Assembly: GCA_009840165.1 (NCBI GenBank)
Contig: VXOG01000067.1
Span: 406-64,405, forward strand
DNA: 64,000 nucleotides
Source: Chloroflexota bacterium
Lineage (GTDB): Bacteria; Chloroflexota; Dehalococcoidia; Lucifugimonadales; UBA3495
Reading direction: 5' to 3'
The position numbers and the translations under genes were made by a program. This document shows, in pieces, positions 34,446-56,296 of this stretch. The notes under the pieces were generated by a model, which was not told where the DNA came from, searched no databases, and worked only from the letters and a program-made list of their open reading frames with translations. Every line of letters begins with the position of its first letter. Positions within the stretch are counted from its first letter, which is position 1.

Positions 34446-34529
34446 GAACGATTGGGGGTCGGTCTCGTTGGAGACTCGGCTAAAGCCGGGTACGTCCGCC
34501 CACTCGTTCCACGAAGTGCAGCTGGATCA

Positions 34530-34740
34530 CACCCGCAGGCAGGCCTCCTGGCTGATGGCTAATAGCGACGCTCCTCCGCCTTCCCATCCGTCTGAAAACG
34601 GACAGTGGCTTGAACCGGGAATTGATTGTCAATTCCCTCCTGGAGGGCGTCTCGCCAATTACAGTGGCGGGACCGCACCGGATTTGCACCGGATTTCCTT
34701 TTCAGCTCGTGGTTGGTCGCAACGGTGCGACAACGAACGA
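34530..34740 (-). promoter_or_regulatory. Cobalamin (B12) riboswitch
   Basis: The minus strand reads GGTGCAAATCCGGTGCGGTC then CCGCCACTGTAATTGG at about 34693-34658, the invariant aptamer core. It then has AAGCCACTG and the B12 box AGCCAGGAGGCCTGCC at 34553-34538. Order and spacing fit the class I cobalamin aptamer. It controls the cobamide operon to its left. Confidence 0.95.
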
Positions 34741-34781
34741 ACCACCGGCGGGAGTTAGTAGATTCGATTGTTAACAGCTCA

Positions 34782-51541: not shown

Positions 51542-52747
51542 ATGGCAATGAGCGATAGCACGGGCAACGGCGCGGCTCCTGAGTTCGGGGCGCCCAGCGT
51601 GTACGGCGATGATGGCGTGACCATCATCGGTATGATCGGCGTGGTGCGGGCAGCCGCCGCCAATCAGGGCGCCACCCTCAGCCTCTTCGGCGGCGGCATC
51701 AACCCCGGCGCTGAGGTCCCGTCAGGCGTTGATCCCGACTACATCCTAGATTTCGCTCGCACCCACGAGGATGCCGGGTTCGACATGGTGTTGACCGGCT
51801 ACTCGTCCTCAACCCCGGACGGTTTTGAAGTCGCCGGCTACGCTGCCGCCCACACCGAACGCCTGGGCTACCTGATCGCGCATCGCCCCGGCTTCGTCGC
51901 GCCGACGCTGGCCGCCCGCAAAGCCGCGACTTTGGACCAGCTCACCAACGGACGCATCGCGTTGCACATCATCACCGGCGGCAATGACGTGGAGCAGCGT
52001 CAGGACGGCGACTGGCTGGACCATGATGCCCGCTACCGCCGCACCGATGAATATCTGTCCGTGATGCGCCGCATCTGGATCGAACACGAGCCCTTCGACC
52101 ATGAGGGGGAGTTCTACCGTTTTCAGGATGCATACAGCCAGGCTCGATGCCGGCAGCAGCCTCACGTTCCGCTGTTTTTTGGCGGCGCATCCGACATAGC
52201 ATTGGACGTCGCCAGTCGGCGCGCGGACCTTTTTGCCCTGTGGGGAGAACCTCGCGCTTCCATTGCTCAGCGCATTTCGGATGTCAAAGGCCGCGTTGCC
52301 GCTGCCGGCCGTGATCCGTCGGAGATCAGGTTCAGTTTGTCGGCGCGCCCGATACTTGCGGAGACCGAAGAAAAGGCTTGGGAACGTGCGGGGCAAATTC
52401 TGAACCGGGTGAAAGAGGCTACTGCCGGTAGAATCACACCGGGAGTTCCCACCCGTCCCCAGTCCGAAGGGGCGTGGCGTCTGTTGCGCTTTGCCGCGGA
52501 GGGCAATGTCCACGACGAACGCCTATGGATGCCGATAGCCGCCGCCAGCGGAGCATCCGGCAGTACCACCTGTCTGGTCGGCACGCCTCGCCAGGTCGCC
52601 GATTCGCTGCTGGCCTACTACGACCTGGGCTGTTCCGCCTTCATAATTCGCGGATTCGACCCTCTGGCCGACGCGGCGGAGTATGGCCGCGAGCTAATCC
52701 CCCTGCTCCGCGAAGGCGTAGCCGCCCGCCGCAAGGGACGGGTATAA
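51542..52747 (+). CDS. LLM-class flavin-dependent monooxygenase (SsuD-like)
   Basis: The product has 401 residues. DPDYILDFARTHEDAGFDMVLTGY, AAHTERLGYLIAHRPGFVAPTLAARKAATLDQLTNGRIALHIITGG and the H/R-containing FYRFQDAYSQ are the alkanesulfonate monooxygenase pattern. Such enzymes use FMNH2 from a partner reductase to cleave C-S or oxidise other bonds. A flavin reductase-like gene occurs at 59632, but in another transcript. Confidence 0.88.
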   Translation: MAMSDSTGNGAAPEFGAPSVYGDDGVTIIGMIGVVRAAAANQGATLSLFGGGINPGAEVPSGVDPDYILDFARTHEDAGFDMVLTGYSSSTPDGFEVAGYAAAHTERLGYLIAHRPGFVAPTLAARKAATLDQLTNGRIALHIITGGNDVEQRQDGDWLDHDARYRRTDEYLSVMRRIWIEHEPFDHEGEFYRFQDAYSQARCRQQPHVPLFFGGASDIALDVASRRADLFALWGEPRASIAQRISDVKGRVAAAGRDPSEIRFSLSARPILAETEEKAWERAGQILNRVKEATAGRITPGVPTRPQSEGAWRLLRFAAEGNVHDERLWMPIAAASGASGSTTCLVGTPRQVADSLLAYYDLGCSAFIIRGFDPLADAAEYGRELIPLLREGVAARRKGRV

Positions 52748-54009: not shown

Positions 54010-54501
54010 CTAGCCGCTGCGCAGACGCGCCCGCTCCCTTCCCTCAATGAAATGGATTGCCTCGTCCGCATTGATCCGTCCCACGGGGCCACTCGCGTAC
54101 ATGGCGCCCAGCACAGTACCGCCACGTCCCAGCAGGAATTCAGTGGGCTGAATGTAGCCGCCGCGATCTTCGGACCACCAGGAACCCAATAGATCCGCTT
54201 CTTCTCTGGTGACGCCGTAGGCCATGGGGAACGTAACGCCGGACTTTTCGGCCATCTCTTGCACGACTTCCTTCGGTTCGACGCTGGCGCCGATCATCGT
54301 AAGCCCCATCTCGGCCAGCACATCCTTTTGCGATTCCCAGGCGGCCAACTGCCGCGAGCAGTAGGGTCACCACACTCCACGGTAGAACATCACCGCCAAA
54401 TACCGCGAGGACATGTCCCCCGGCAACTCCAGCGTGCTCCCGTCAATCAGGTTGAACGTAATTGGAGGCAGTCGGTCGCCCTGCTGTAATTTTTCGTTCA
54501 C
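54010..54501 (-). CDS. Selenoprotein, peroxiredoxin-like / AhpC-TSA family (in-frame TGA = Sec45)
   Basis: The minus-strand frame is open from GTG 54501 to 54010 except for TGA at 54369-54367. Reading it as Sec gives 163 residues with FYRGVW-Sec-PYC at the catalytic site of the peroxiredoxin-like family (usual form RGxWCPYC). After it come LAAWESQKDVLAEMGL and IGASVEP, the redoxin core. It probably reduces peroxides or acts as a thiol oxidoreductase. GGAGGGAGGAA precedes the GTG, which overlaps the stop codon of the HEPN-like gene (GTGA). A SECIS-like hairpin follows the TGA. Confidence 0.88.
54341..54355 (-). promoter_or_regulatory. Candidate bacterial SECIS hairpin for Sec45
   Basis: On the minus strand GCGGC (54355-54351) pairs with GCCGC (54345-54341) around the loop AGTTG. 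The loop is at +17 to +21 after the TGA, with GU at +18/+19. Loop sequence and offset are identical to the TlpA-like selenoprotein. Confidence 0.8.
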
Positions 54502-54983
54502 GATTGCGTTCCTCCCTCCGGCCAAAACAGTTCGTAAAGCCTCTCCGACAGTTCCTCGCACAGTTCCAAACCGCCGGTCACTTCGACATGGTCCGCTTCA
54601 TCTTCATAGAAGTTTGAATGTAAACCCCGGGCGACCATAAATGAGTTGTTAATCCAGTGGCGTGTGTGGATATCTCCAGACTCTCCCACCAAGCTGGACA
54701 ACTGTCGAACCACCTCCCAAATCGAACGATGCTGGTGGATGATCCCACCATGCCGCGCACTGACCGCCTTCACGGTTTCAGCCACCATACCCCACGCCTT
54801 GTTGGACGCTTGCGGCAAGTCGCCGTCCTCTCTCAGGTGTTTCCACGCGCCGGCGCGGAAGTCCCTGCCGAGATCGGCGTATTTTTCTGGAGTCCGGCCG
54901 ACATCGTCAGGCTGCGCGCGATCACGAGCGGCGTCCAGCCCTCGGGCTACGGCGGCGGCGATGTCGTCATCGGCGAATGGCAC
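54498..54983 (-). CDS. PaREP1/HEPN-like helical protein
   Basis: The product has 161 residues. A central helical segment, SNKAWGMVAETVKAVSARHG then HRSIWEVVRQL, with the late LHSNFYEDEADHVEV, follows the PaREP1 branch of the HEPN superfamily. An R-x5-H string lies at residues 77-83; HEPN RNases use an R-x4-6-H motif, though many PaREP1 proteins are not proven nucleases. It starts at GTG 54983, two bases after the monooxygenase stop codon, and overlaps the selenoprotein gene by 4 bases. Confidence 0.65.
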   Translation of the reverse strand: MPFADDDIAAAVARGLDAARDRAQPDDVGRTPEKYADLGRDFRAGAWKHLREDGDLPQASNKAWGMVAETVKAVSARHGGIIHQHRSIWEVVRQLSSLVGESGDIHTRHWINNSFMVARGLHSNFYEDEADHVEVTGGLELCEELSERLYELFWPEGGTQS

Positions 54984-54985
54984 GG

Positions 54986-56209
54986 CTAATCCCCAACCGC
55001 TTCGGCGGTCTCGGACTTGAGCTTTTCCGGCCACCACGGGTCATCATATTCGTTGAACAGATCCTTCATGTGGGGCATGACTTCGTTGGCGAACAGGTCC
55101 GTGTTCTTCTTCACCAGTTCGGGCGGCATGCTGCCGATTTGCAGCAGCACCATCAGGTGACCGATGCGCAGTAACTCACACGCTTCCGTCAACTTGCGGC
55201 GCACGGTTTCCGGGCTCCCGCCAATCACGTGTCCCTGTTCGATGTAGTCCTTCCAGCTGTTTTCCTTGGCCGTCCGCTGCGCCTCTTCGCCCATCTGAGG
55301 CCGCAACGACTTGCGGATGGAATCCAGCGAACGGTAGCCAGGGGATTCGGCGAAGGGTGGGTACACGCGCAACATCTTTTCGTAGAAGTATTTGACGTGT
55401 TCCTCGTAGTCCTTCTCCGCCTGCTCGTCCGTTTCGGAAACGCATACCAGTTGCAGGAAGCCCAAGCGGTGCGGGTTATCGTCAATACCCCGCTCGGCGA
55501 CCCGTTCCCAGTAGCCTTTCACGATGTTGTAGCCGCGCAGGTAGCCGTAGTACGACAGGTAGCAGTACACGTAGTCCCGGTCCAGCACCCAGTCCCACGT
55601 TTCCAGGCTGCCGGATCCGGGCACCCAAACCGGCGGGTGTGGCTCCTGCATTGGCCGGGGCCAGATGCTGATGTAGCGCAGCTTGTTGTATTTGCCGTTG
55701 AAAATGGTGGGATGGTGCTGCGTCCAGGCTTGCATCACCACGTCGTGCGCTTCCGTGTGCCGGTCGCGCAGCGTGATCGGCACCTGCCCGTAGGAGAACG
55801 TGGTATCCATGGAGGTTCCCACCGGGAATCCGGCCACCAGGCGCCCGCCGGAGATCACGTCGATCATCGCCATCTCTTCAGCAACCCGCACCGGCGGGTT
55901 GTAGAGGGCAAGGCTGTTGCCCAGGACGATGACCGCGCCGTTGTTGGTGCTGTTGGCAAGTACCGAAGCGATGAGGTTGGGCGACGGCATGATGCCGTAG
56001 GCGTTGTTGTGGTGCTCGTTGACGCAGATGCCATCGAAACCCACTTCGTCGGCGTACCGCAACTGGTCGATGTATTGCGCGTAATACTCGTTGCCTTTGG
56101 CGGGATCGAAGTTCTCGTTGGGCAGGTCCACCCACGCGGAGTGATGCTGTTCGGCGAAGTCGTCAGGCAGGTCCTGGTATGGCATCAGGTGGAAAAAGGA
56201 AACTTTCAT
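54986..56209 (-). CDS. LLM-class flavin-dependent monooxygenase (luciferase-like)
   Basis: The product has 407 residues. DQLRYADEVGFDGICVNEHHNNAYG, VIVLGNSLALYNPPVRVAEEMAMIDVISGGRLVAGFPVG and the late GGSPETVRRKLTEACELL are the bacterial luciferase-like fold with FMN- and substrate-binding loops. The substrate is not predictable. The ATG at 56209 is chosen because MKVSFFHLMPY begins the fold. It heads a transcript with the HEPN-like and selenoprotein genes. Confidence 0.88.
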   Translation of the reverse strand: MKVSFFHLMPYQDLPDDFAEQHHSAWVDLPNENFDPAKGNEYYAQYIDQLRYADEVGFDGICVNEHHNNAYGIMPSPNLIASVLANSTNNGAVIVLGNSLALYNPPVRVAEEMAMIDVISGGRLVAGFPVGTSMDTTFSYGQVPITLRDRHTEAHDVVMQAWTQHHPTIFNGKYNKLRYISIWPRPMQEPHPPVWVPGSGSLETWDWVLDRDYVYCYLSYYGYLRGYNIVKGYWERVAERGIDDNPHRLGFLQLVCVSETDEQAEKDYEEHVKYFYEKMLRVYPPFAESPGYRSLDSIRKSLRPQMGEEAQRTAKENSWKDYIEQGHVIGGSPETVRRKLTEACELLRIGHLMVLLQIGSMPPELVKKNTDLFANEVMPHMKDLFNEYDDPWWPEKLKSETAEAVGD

Positions 56210-56261
56210 GGTTGCGAATCCTAACCGTCCAAATGGGTCTTTCCGGGGATGGATGGATTTT

Positions 56262-56296
56262 AGCACAACGGCCCGGCATCACCGGGCCGTCGTGTT
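56262..56296 (-). terminator. Probable intrinsic terminator after the alpha/beta hydrolase gene
   Basis: CGGCCCGG and CCGGGCCG pair perfectly around a 5-base loop; flanking bases lengthen the stem. On the minus strand it is followed by TTGTGCTAAAATCC, a poor T-run, so termination may be partial. Confidence 0.5.

Follow-up and report, generated by a model that had tools for sequence, protein, structure and literature searches.

Peroxiredoxin-like (Prx-like) selenoproteins with a UxxC motif are known from marine metagenomes. In the passages cited here, the Sargasso Sea study of 2005 describes a Prx-like family of 22 sequences in which UXXC replaces the TXXU of the selenocysteine (Sec) peroxiredoxins (PMC1088965), and the GOS study of 2008 gives Prx-like 1 (pfam00578, UxxC) with 225 Sec versus 2,740 Cys sequences (PMC2398784). 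Passages of two reviews, from 2022 and 2026, likewise describe a Prx-like thiol:disulfide oxidoreductase of PF00578 with UxxC or UxxU (PMC9312934, PMC13188914). Most of the Sargasso Sea selenoproteins were sporadic, as opposed to their widespread Cys homologues, and the bacterial SECIS element is characterized in the same source as a stem-loop immediately 3' of the UGA with a small apical loop that contains a G (PMC1088965, in part). The use of Sec in the class Dehalococcoidia is already known, as Sec formate dehydrogenases were reported from deep-sea Chloroflexi genomes (passage in PMC5736913), and SelA and SelB were reported for most bins of sponge symbionts, which belong to various phyla (passage in PMC5649159). 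The word "Chloroflexi" does not occur in the main text of PMC13188914 or of PMC9312934, and neither "Chloroflexi" nor "SAR202" occurs in that of PMC2398784 or of PMC9402790. Among the open-access literature matches listed, no title or start of an abstract concerned a Prx-like UxxC family in Chloroflexota, SAR202 or Dehalococcoidia.

Here, we analyzed a TGA-interrupted gene in a 64,000-nucleotide stretch of Chloroflexota DNA (the window). The initial annotation had read it as a selenoprotein gene, and our analysis bears this out: it is very probably a genuine selenoprotein gene, and we put the probability that it encodes a selenoprotein with UxxC redox chemistry, irrespective of the substrate, at about 93%. 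The gene resembles the Prx-like UxxC selenoproteins of marine metagenomes, as partly described (PMC1088965, PMC2398784, PMC9312934, PMC13188914), in its PF00578 domain, its UxxC motif, the hairpin after the UGA and a predicted thiol redox role. The Chloroflexota subfamily has GYIQPxEF- and SGPVGRM-type signatures, and it is likened to the published Prx-like set by description, not by sequence identity. It is a largely expected member of a known selenoprotein family, in that nearly all of the close relatives examined use Sec.

Table 1. Coordinates of the predicted selenoprotein gene, its parts and its upstream neighbors in the window.
Feature	Position	Strand	Details
Predicted selenoprotein gene, Prx-like (AhpC/TSA family) UxxC protein	54010..54501	minus	GTG start, TAG stop, 163 aa; PF00578/PF08534 matches
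TGA, in frame, predicted to be read as Sec45	54367..54369	minus	TGA at the same codon in 95/101 distinct relatives
Cys48 codon (TGC), second residue of the UxxC pair	54358..54360	minus	Invariant in alignment A2; aligned to the peroxidatic Cys of 6q5v and 5xbq
Predicted SECIS hairpin	54341..54355	minus	5-bp stem +12..+16/+22..+26 after TGA, loop AGUUG, loop G 54349 (+18)
Shine-Dalgarno-like GGAGG	54511..54515	minus	9 nt 5' of GTG
PaREP1-like ORF, upstream, start overlap GTGA	54498..55037	minus	PF05942 E 8.8e-10; own start uncertain
Luciferase-like (LLM) flavin monooxygenase, upstream, same strand	54986..56266	minus	PF00296 E 4.1e-32

The read-through translation runs from the GTG at 54501–54499 to the TAG at 54012–54010, and its only other in-frame stop is the TGA at 54369–54367, which places Sec at residue 45 of the 163-residue protein. 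The frame, the ribosome-binding site and the start overlap proposed in the initial annotation were all recovered, the upstream ORF ending in a TGA that shares bases with the selenoprotein start (GTGA). So was the splitting of the gene by ordinary gene calling: mechanical ORF calling yields a 64-aa 5' ORF and a 112-aa 3' ORF, and the latter lacks the UxxC motif because its TTG start at 54348 falls after Cys48. Besides this gene, a filtered and non-exhaustive search of the window turned up four TGA-interrupted frames, which we judged by eye to be chance frames and discarded.

Could the two mechanical ORFs be two separate short proteins, the second starting at TTG 54348? The family matches argue against it. 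The read-through protein matches PF00578 (AhpC-TSA; E 8.9e-17, 61.6 bits against a curated cut-off of 26) over residues 8–130 and PF08534 (Redoxin) at E 8.3e-11, so the PF00578 domain spans both parts, the 3' part would be left without Cys48, and relatives with Cys or Ser at the site have no stop inside the match. We therefore rejected two separate genes, an arrangement that we regard as extremely improbable, and the halves are not independently conserved genes, the outcome that the initial annotation had named as telling against a single frame. Both families were also matched by all 59 members of A2, an alignment of 59 of the 101 relatives that was used as a profile (59/59, E 0.001). Of the two families suggested for the protein search, AhpC/TSA was thus recovered and Prx_like2 was not: PF13911 (AhpC-TSA_2/PRX_like2) had no match at E 0.001 with the read-through protein or the A2 members. 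The gene is accordingly like the UxxS peroxiredoxin-like family (cd02970 in a passage of PMC13188914, pfam13911 in one of PMC9312934) in being Prx-like with a Sec motif, but differs from it in having UxxC and no PF13911 match at that threshold. All NCBIfam matches of the selenoprotein were under the cut-off.

The closest named relatives by protein were Chloroflexota, Dehalococcoidia and SAR202 records. A first genome scan with six peptide patterns did not favor TGA genes because the only pattern covering the Sec site was written with Cys; it gave 14 loci, and the 13 relatives among them all had TGA at the same codon (13/13), an agreement far exceeding what chance would produce. The 14th locus (L034) was judged a false match and dropped. 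The class search (profile, E 1e-10) found matches in 31 of 294 genomes, and the order search (E 1e-30) matched 103 of 250 genomes at 111 places, with TGA inside 108 of the 111, the TGA position being verified in the fetched sequences, to which 60 more regions were added after this search. Two of its unfetched places, G402 and a second, partial match of G491, were listed with two TGA. In the phylum search (E 1e-25), 24 of 400 genomes matched; TGA stood at the site in all 19 matches of one family (f125), and Cys in 4/4 of the large-genome family f132 and 2/2 of genome G561.

Before filtering, the 134 profile hits comprised 121 with TGA, 8 with Cys, 2 with Thr, and 1 each with Ser, Tyr or no site. 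After hits duplicated in the 78-nt region of the site were dropped, those of at least 110 bits amounted to 101 distinct relatives; at the Sec site, 95 of them have TGA, 5 a Cys codon and 1 a Ser codon. The comparison of the TGA site across related genomes that had been suggested for this gene hence came out for recoding, and the opposite outcome, homologs lacking both Cys and Sec, did not occur (Cys or Sec in 100/101). Every listed relative also has a Cys at +3 from the site, and the listed relatives show no second TGA within 110 codons downstream of the Sec TGA, further TGAs preceding the start. One Sec copy (L156, genome G431) stops early, at a TAG lying 73 codons downstream of its Sec codon, and is either broken or affected by an assembly error.

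The dominance of Sec over rare Cys and Ser is less usual and mildly surprising. The 95 Sec and 5 Cys among 101 relatives contrast with the 225 Sec and 2,740 Cys of GOS Prx-like 1 (passage in PMC2398784), a wider family whose ratios are not strictly comparable, and our ratio describes the subfamily near the Sec seeds, as Sec members were the main source of the search profiles and the score cuts were high. Compared with the Sargasso Sea selenoproteins, as partly described (PMC1088965), the Sec/Cys balance is reversed here.

The same comparison bears on whether the UGA is a plain stop in a pseudogene or a product of sequencing or assembly error. The assembly is indeed in many contigs and the mechanical ORFs break at the TGA, but 95 distinct relatives have the same TGA and the same frame before and after it, and both halves are under purifying selection, with dN/dS of 0.06–0.21 before the TGA and 0.02–0.34 after it (28 of 33 segments with computable dS; 11 pairs, the window gene in every pair). 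A pseudogene or assembly error is contradicted by this conservation; we rejected it and assign it a negligible chance. A changed genetic code, with UGA read as Trp or another residue, would also leave the frame open. However, where TGA is missing the residue is Cys (5 members) or Ser (1 member) and never Trp, the overlapping upstream ORF terminates in TGA, and the genome carries complete Sec machinery. On these three grounds we rejected a changed code as well, and it would be most surprising if it applied.

The machinery was searched for in the source genome (3.76 Mb, 115 contigs), where selA (551.8 bits), selB (363.4) and selD (373.5) all scored over their curated cut-offs. A tRNA-Sec with anticodon tca was present, by a model that also gives a tRNA-Ser at 47.2 bits, just above the cut-off. 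Among the 31 class-search genomes, 24 had the TGA gene at the homologous codon; selA or selB was found in all 24 and both in 20, versus selA or selB in 3 of the 7 genomes without a TGA match at E 1e-10. The association has a one-sided Fisher p of ~0.001, which is indicative only, as the genomes are related. Among the 24 TGA-bearing genomes, selA was not found in 3, selB in 1 and tRNA-Sec in 3, the assemblies concerned all being in several contigs. A tRNA-Sec was detected in 25 of the 31 class-search genomes (E 1e-9), and one genome without selA or selB (G091) had a tRNA-Sec match of 52.1 bits. The selD gene of the source genome (L065, genome G000, contig C7) has an in-frame TGA within the motif HCAGUAAK and is itself a predicted selenoprotein.

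The predicted SECIS hairpin starts 11 nt downstream of the UGA, within the coding sequence, and the E. coli SECIS has a similar spacing from its UGA. Like the bacterial elements, the hairpin is a stem-loop right after the UGA whose small apical loop has a G, although a competing stem exists. We compared codon choice at codons +5 to +8 after the TGA with that elsewhere in the same Sec genes. The Arg codon was CGG in 83/94 versus 190/805 elsewhere, the Gln codon CAG in 94/94 versus 315/446, the Leu codon TTR in 91/95 versus 213/1261, and the Ala codon GCC in 83/87 versus 536/1251. Furthermore, synonymous change in codons +3..+9 was 0.18 per site, compared with 0.61 elsewhere (11 pairs, the window gene in all). 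A bacterial SECIS element, which we describe here as predicted, would be expected to constrain the codons after the TGA in this way.

Pairing in the stem was examined across the family. The +12/+26 pair was standard in 79 of 95 Sec genes (GC 41, TA 23, CG 10, TG 4, GT 1). When six pairs were scored across 94 sequences, 86% of the cells were paired, compared with a mean of 74% and a maximum of 77% in 500 shuffles and with at most 44% when the pairing was slid; the two most variable pairs on their own reached 74% (shuffle mean 39%, maximum 51%; at most 51% slid). A tree-based independence test of +12/+26 gave three pairs on supported branches (on average 2.5 changing the same way and 0 the opposite way), too few for significance. 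The loop, AGUUR, has its G (+18) in 94/95 Sec genes versus 0/6 Cys/Ser genes. This G is the third base of the Gln codon, and the contrast is partly an amino-acid change because His replaces the Gln in 4 of the 6 Cys/Ser genes. On its own, the window hairpin is not unusually stable (z +0.57 for 41 nt, −1.44 for 20 nt). RNAalifold on the 95 Sec sequences favors the competing 4-bp stem, +6..+9/+15..+18, which is complete in 87 of 95, consists mostly of amino-acid-fixed bases and shows no two-sided change. A SECIS-type match was not found in Rfam.

With recoding well supported, the substrate becomes the next question. The best solved-structure profile matches are peroxiredoxins (6q5v, E 2e-13), which score 53.6 bits against 40.8 bits for ResA-type oxidoreductases. 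When the profile is aligned with 6q5v and 5xbq, R41, U45, C48 and Pro119 fall, in this order, on the Pro, Thr, Cys and Arg that we take to be the peroxiredoxin catalytic residues, Cys being the peroxidatic one. The canonical PxxxTxxC active site is consequently absent, with R41, U45 and C48 at the aligned positions, and Pro119 stands in place of the conserved Arg. The initial annotation had the TGA replacing the catalytic Cys; in these alignments it is Cys48 that occupies the peroxidatic position, and Sec45 lies three residues earlier, at the catalytic Thr. The protein thus shares the AhpC/TSA family and an active-site Sec with the TxxU Sec-peroxiredoxins (Eubacterium acidaminophilum type; PxxxTxxU in a passage of PMC13188914), but differs from them in that their U is peroxidatic, whereas here U takes the place of the Thr and the peroxidatic position is occupied by Cys.

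On the other hand, the protein is like the ResA-type oxidoreductases in that WCPHC of the ResA match aligns with W-U-P-Y-C, and the Pro of the "iPT" motif in a related chain (3or5) aligns with Pro119, although the profile score is weaker than that of the peroxiredoxins. Pro119, at profile position 120, is invariant in A2, as is Cys48. The active site looks thioredoxin-like (UxxC), with the peroxiredoxin triad replaced. Because the triad is replaced and a thioredoxin-like UxxC is left, the protein is more likely, by about two to one, a Sec-dependent thiol:disulfide oxidoreductase than a classical peroxidase, and a disulfide would be its substrate over a hydroperoxide at the same odds. The earlier description as a Sec peroxidase-like enzyme accordingly holds for the Sec, the single frame and the AhpC/TSA relationship, which are strongly supported, and less well for the peroxidase, given the replaced Pro, Thr and Arg.

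The proposed mechanism would run as follows. SelB and a Sec-tRNA(UCA) would recode the UGA as Sec45 in vivo, directed by the hairpin inside the coding sequence. The product would have a peroxiredoxin-type thioredoxin fold with an active site turned thioredoxin-like, R41-x-x-W-U45-P-Y-C48, and the invariant Pro119 at the likely cis-Pro position. The Sec45 selenolate would attack the oxidized substrate, Cys48 would resolve the attack to give a Sec45–Cys48 selenenylsulfide, and a reductase of the thioredoxin type would recycle it. This redox chemistry, along with the substrate and the partner, we infer from the residues and alignments.

Alternatively, the same selenoprotein might be a hydroperoxidase that mainly reduces H2O2 or organic hydroperoxides and in which Sec45 is the peroxidatic residue. 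Selenols react quickly with peroxides, peroxiredoxins lead the structure matches, and flavin enzymes, which are able to leak H2O2, lie nearby in some lineages: an LLM monooxygenase hit occurs at 19 of 100 loci, the locus studied here included, and in 8 loci there is an upstream cluster whose single annotated member is of the old-yellow-enzyme type. Against this, the peroxiredoxin catalytic Pro, Thr and Arg are all replaced, and the LLM neighbor is weak evidence because the source genome has 84 LLM matches in its 3.76 Mb (in the window, for example, at 51542–52747 and 54986–56266). Moreover, 16 of the 19 LLM hits are 67–100% identical, which amounts to synteny in kin, the other three being 27–32% identical. 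Because of these genome-wide matches and neighbors shared mostly through synteny in close kin, we did not read a function from the LLM gene and treat it as a hint only. Overall, we consider a hydroperoxidase rather unlikely, and the thiol:disulfide oxidoreductase remains our preferred assignment.

The PaREP1-like ORF was rejected as a stable partner of the selenoprotein gene, being hit at only 11 of 100 loci, its own included. It lies between the LLM and selenoprotein genes in only part of the close relatives, several being without a match, and flank lengths differ among loci, so that these absences are partly unseen. Nine of the 19 LLM loci have no PaREP1 hit, and in seven of these nine (L022, L024, L070, L095, L096, L098, L122) the LLM match ends at most ~300 nt before the Sec codon. 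A PADLOC search with the PaREP1-like ORF gave nothing at E 0.01. Elsewhere in the window, a cobalamin riboswitch was found at 34521–34764 on the minus strand (93.5 bits).

How did the Cys and Ser copies arise? On a tree built with the site masked from 94 Sec, 5 Cys and 1 Ser rows (100 in all), three changes are needed, and the Cys and Ser rows fall in one supported group of 29 alongside 23 Sec rows. The tree is a quick, unrooted one with 37 weak inner branches out of 97, and it excludes L156 as too short. Cys and Ser are rare and apparently derived. Because the tree is unrooted and has these weak branches, and because a flagged long-branch join placed one of the Cys rows (L042), the direction from Sec to Cys is an inference. 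It is conceivable, though we would put it at somewhat below even odds, that in this Chloroflexota subfamily Sec is ancestral and near-fixed, with Cys and Ser as rare derivatives, and that the peroxiredoxin Pro-Thr-Arg was rebuilt as Arg-Sec-Pro, giving flavoenzyme-rich bacteria a Sec-dependent redox carrier that is seldom managed with Cys.

Sec-blind gene calling would split the gene of a redox protein that is common in one Chloroflexota order, as the order search indicates, and in gene catalogues this protein is probably absent or cut short. The 95 Sec, 5 Cys and 1 Ser relatives make an unusually clean set in which to study why Sec is retained and what course the decay of the SECIS hairpin takes once Sec is lost. 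One genome (G257) has a tandem pair at about 1498–2535 of its locus (L038), a Sec copy (W-U-P-Y-C) followed by a Ser copy (W-S-P-Y-C), and the latter has lost the SECIS loop G.

The f125 loci (L164–L182), which belong to a different Chloroflexota lineage, have W-U-S-H-C at the same TGA site, followed by similar downstream bases (CGGCAGTTGGCCG and variants). More distant Prx-like genes of the class (L049–L057, L059, L061–L063, L184–L191) also carry a TGA in a UxxC motif, and at L188 two such genes are neighbors. By eye, some of the distant TGA genes seem to have a different hairpin (GCAGCTC..GAGCTGC). In a further distant relative (L047, 377–820), Tyr replaces the first active-site residue, giving W-Y-P-I-C.
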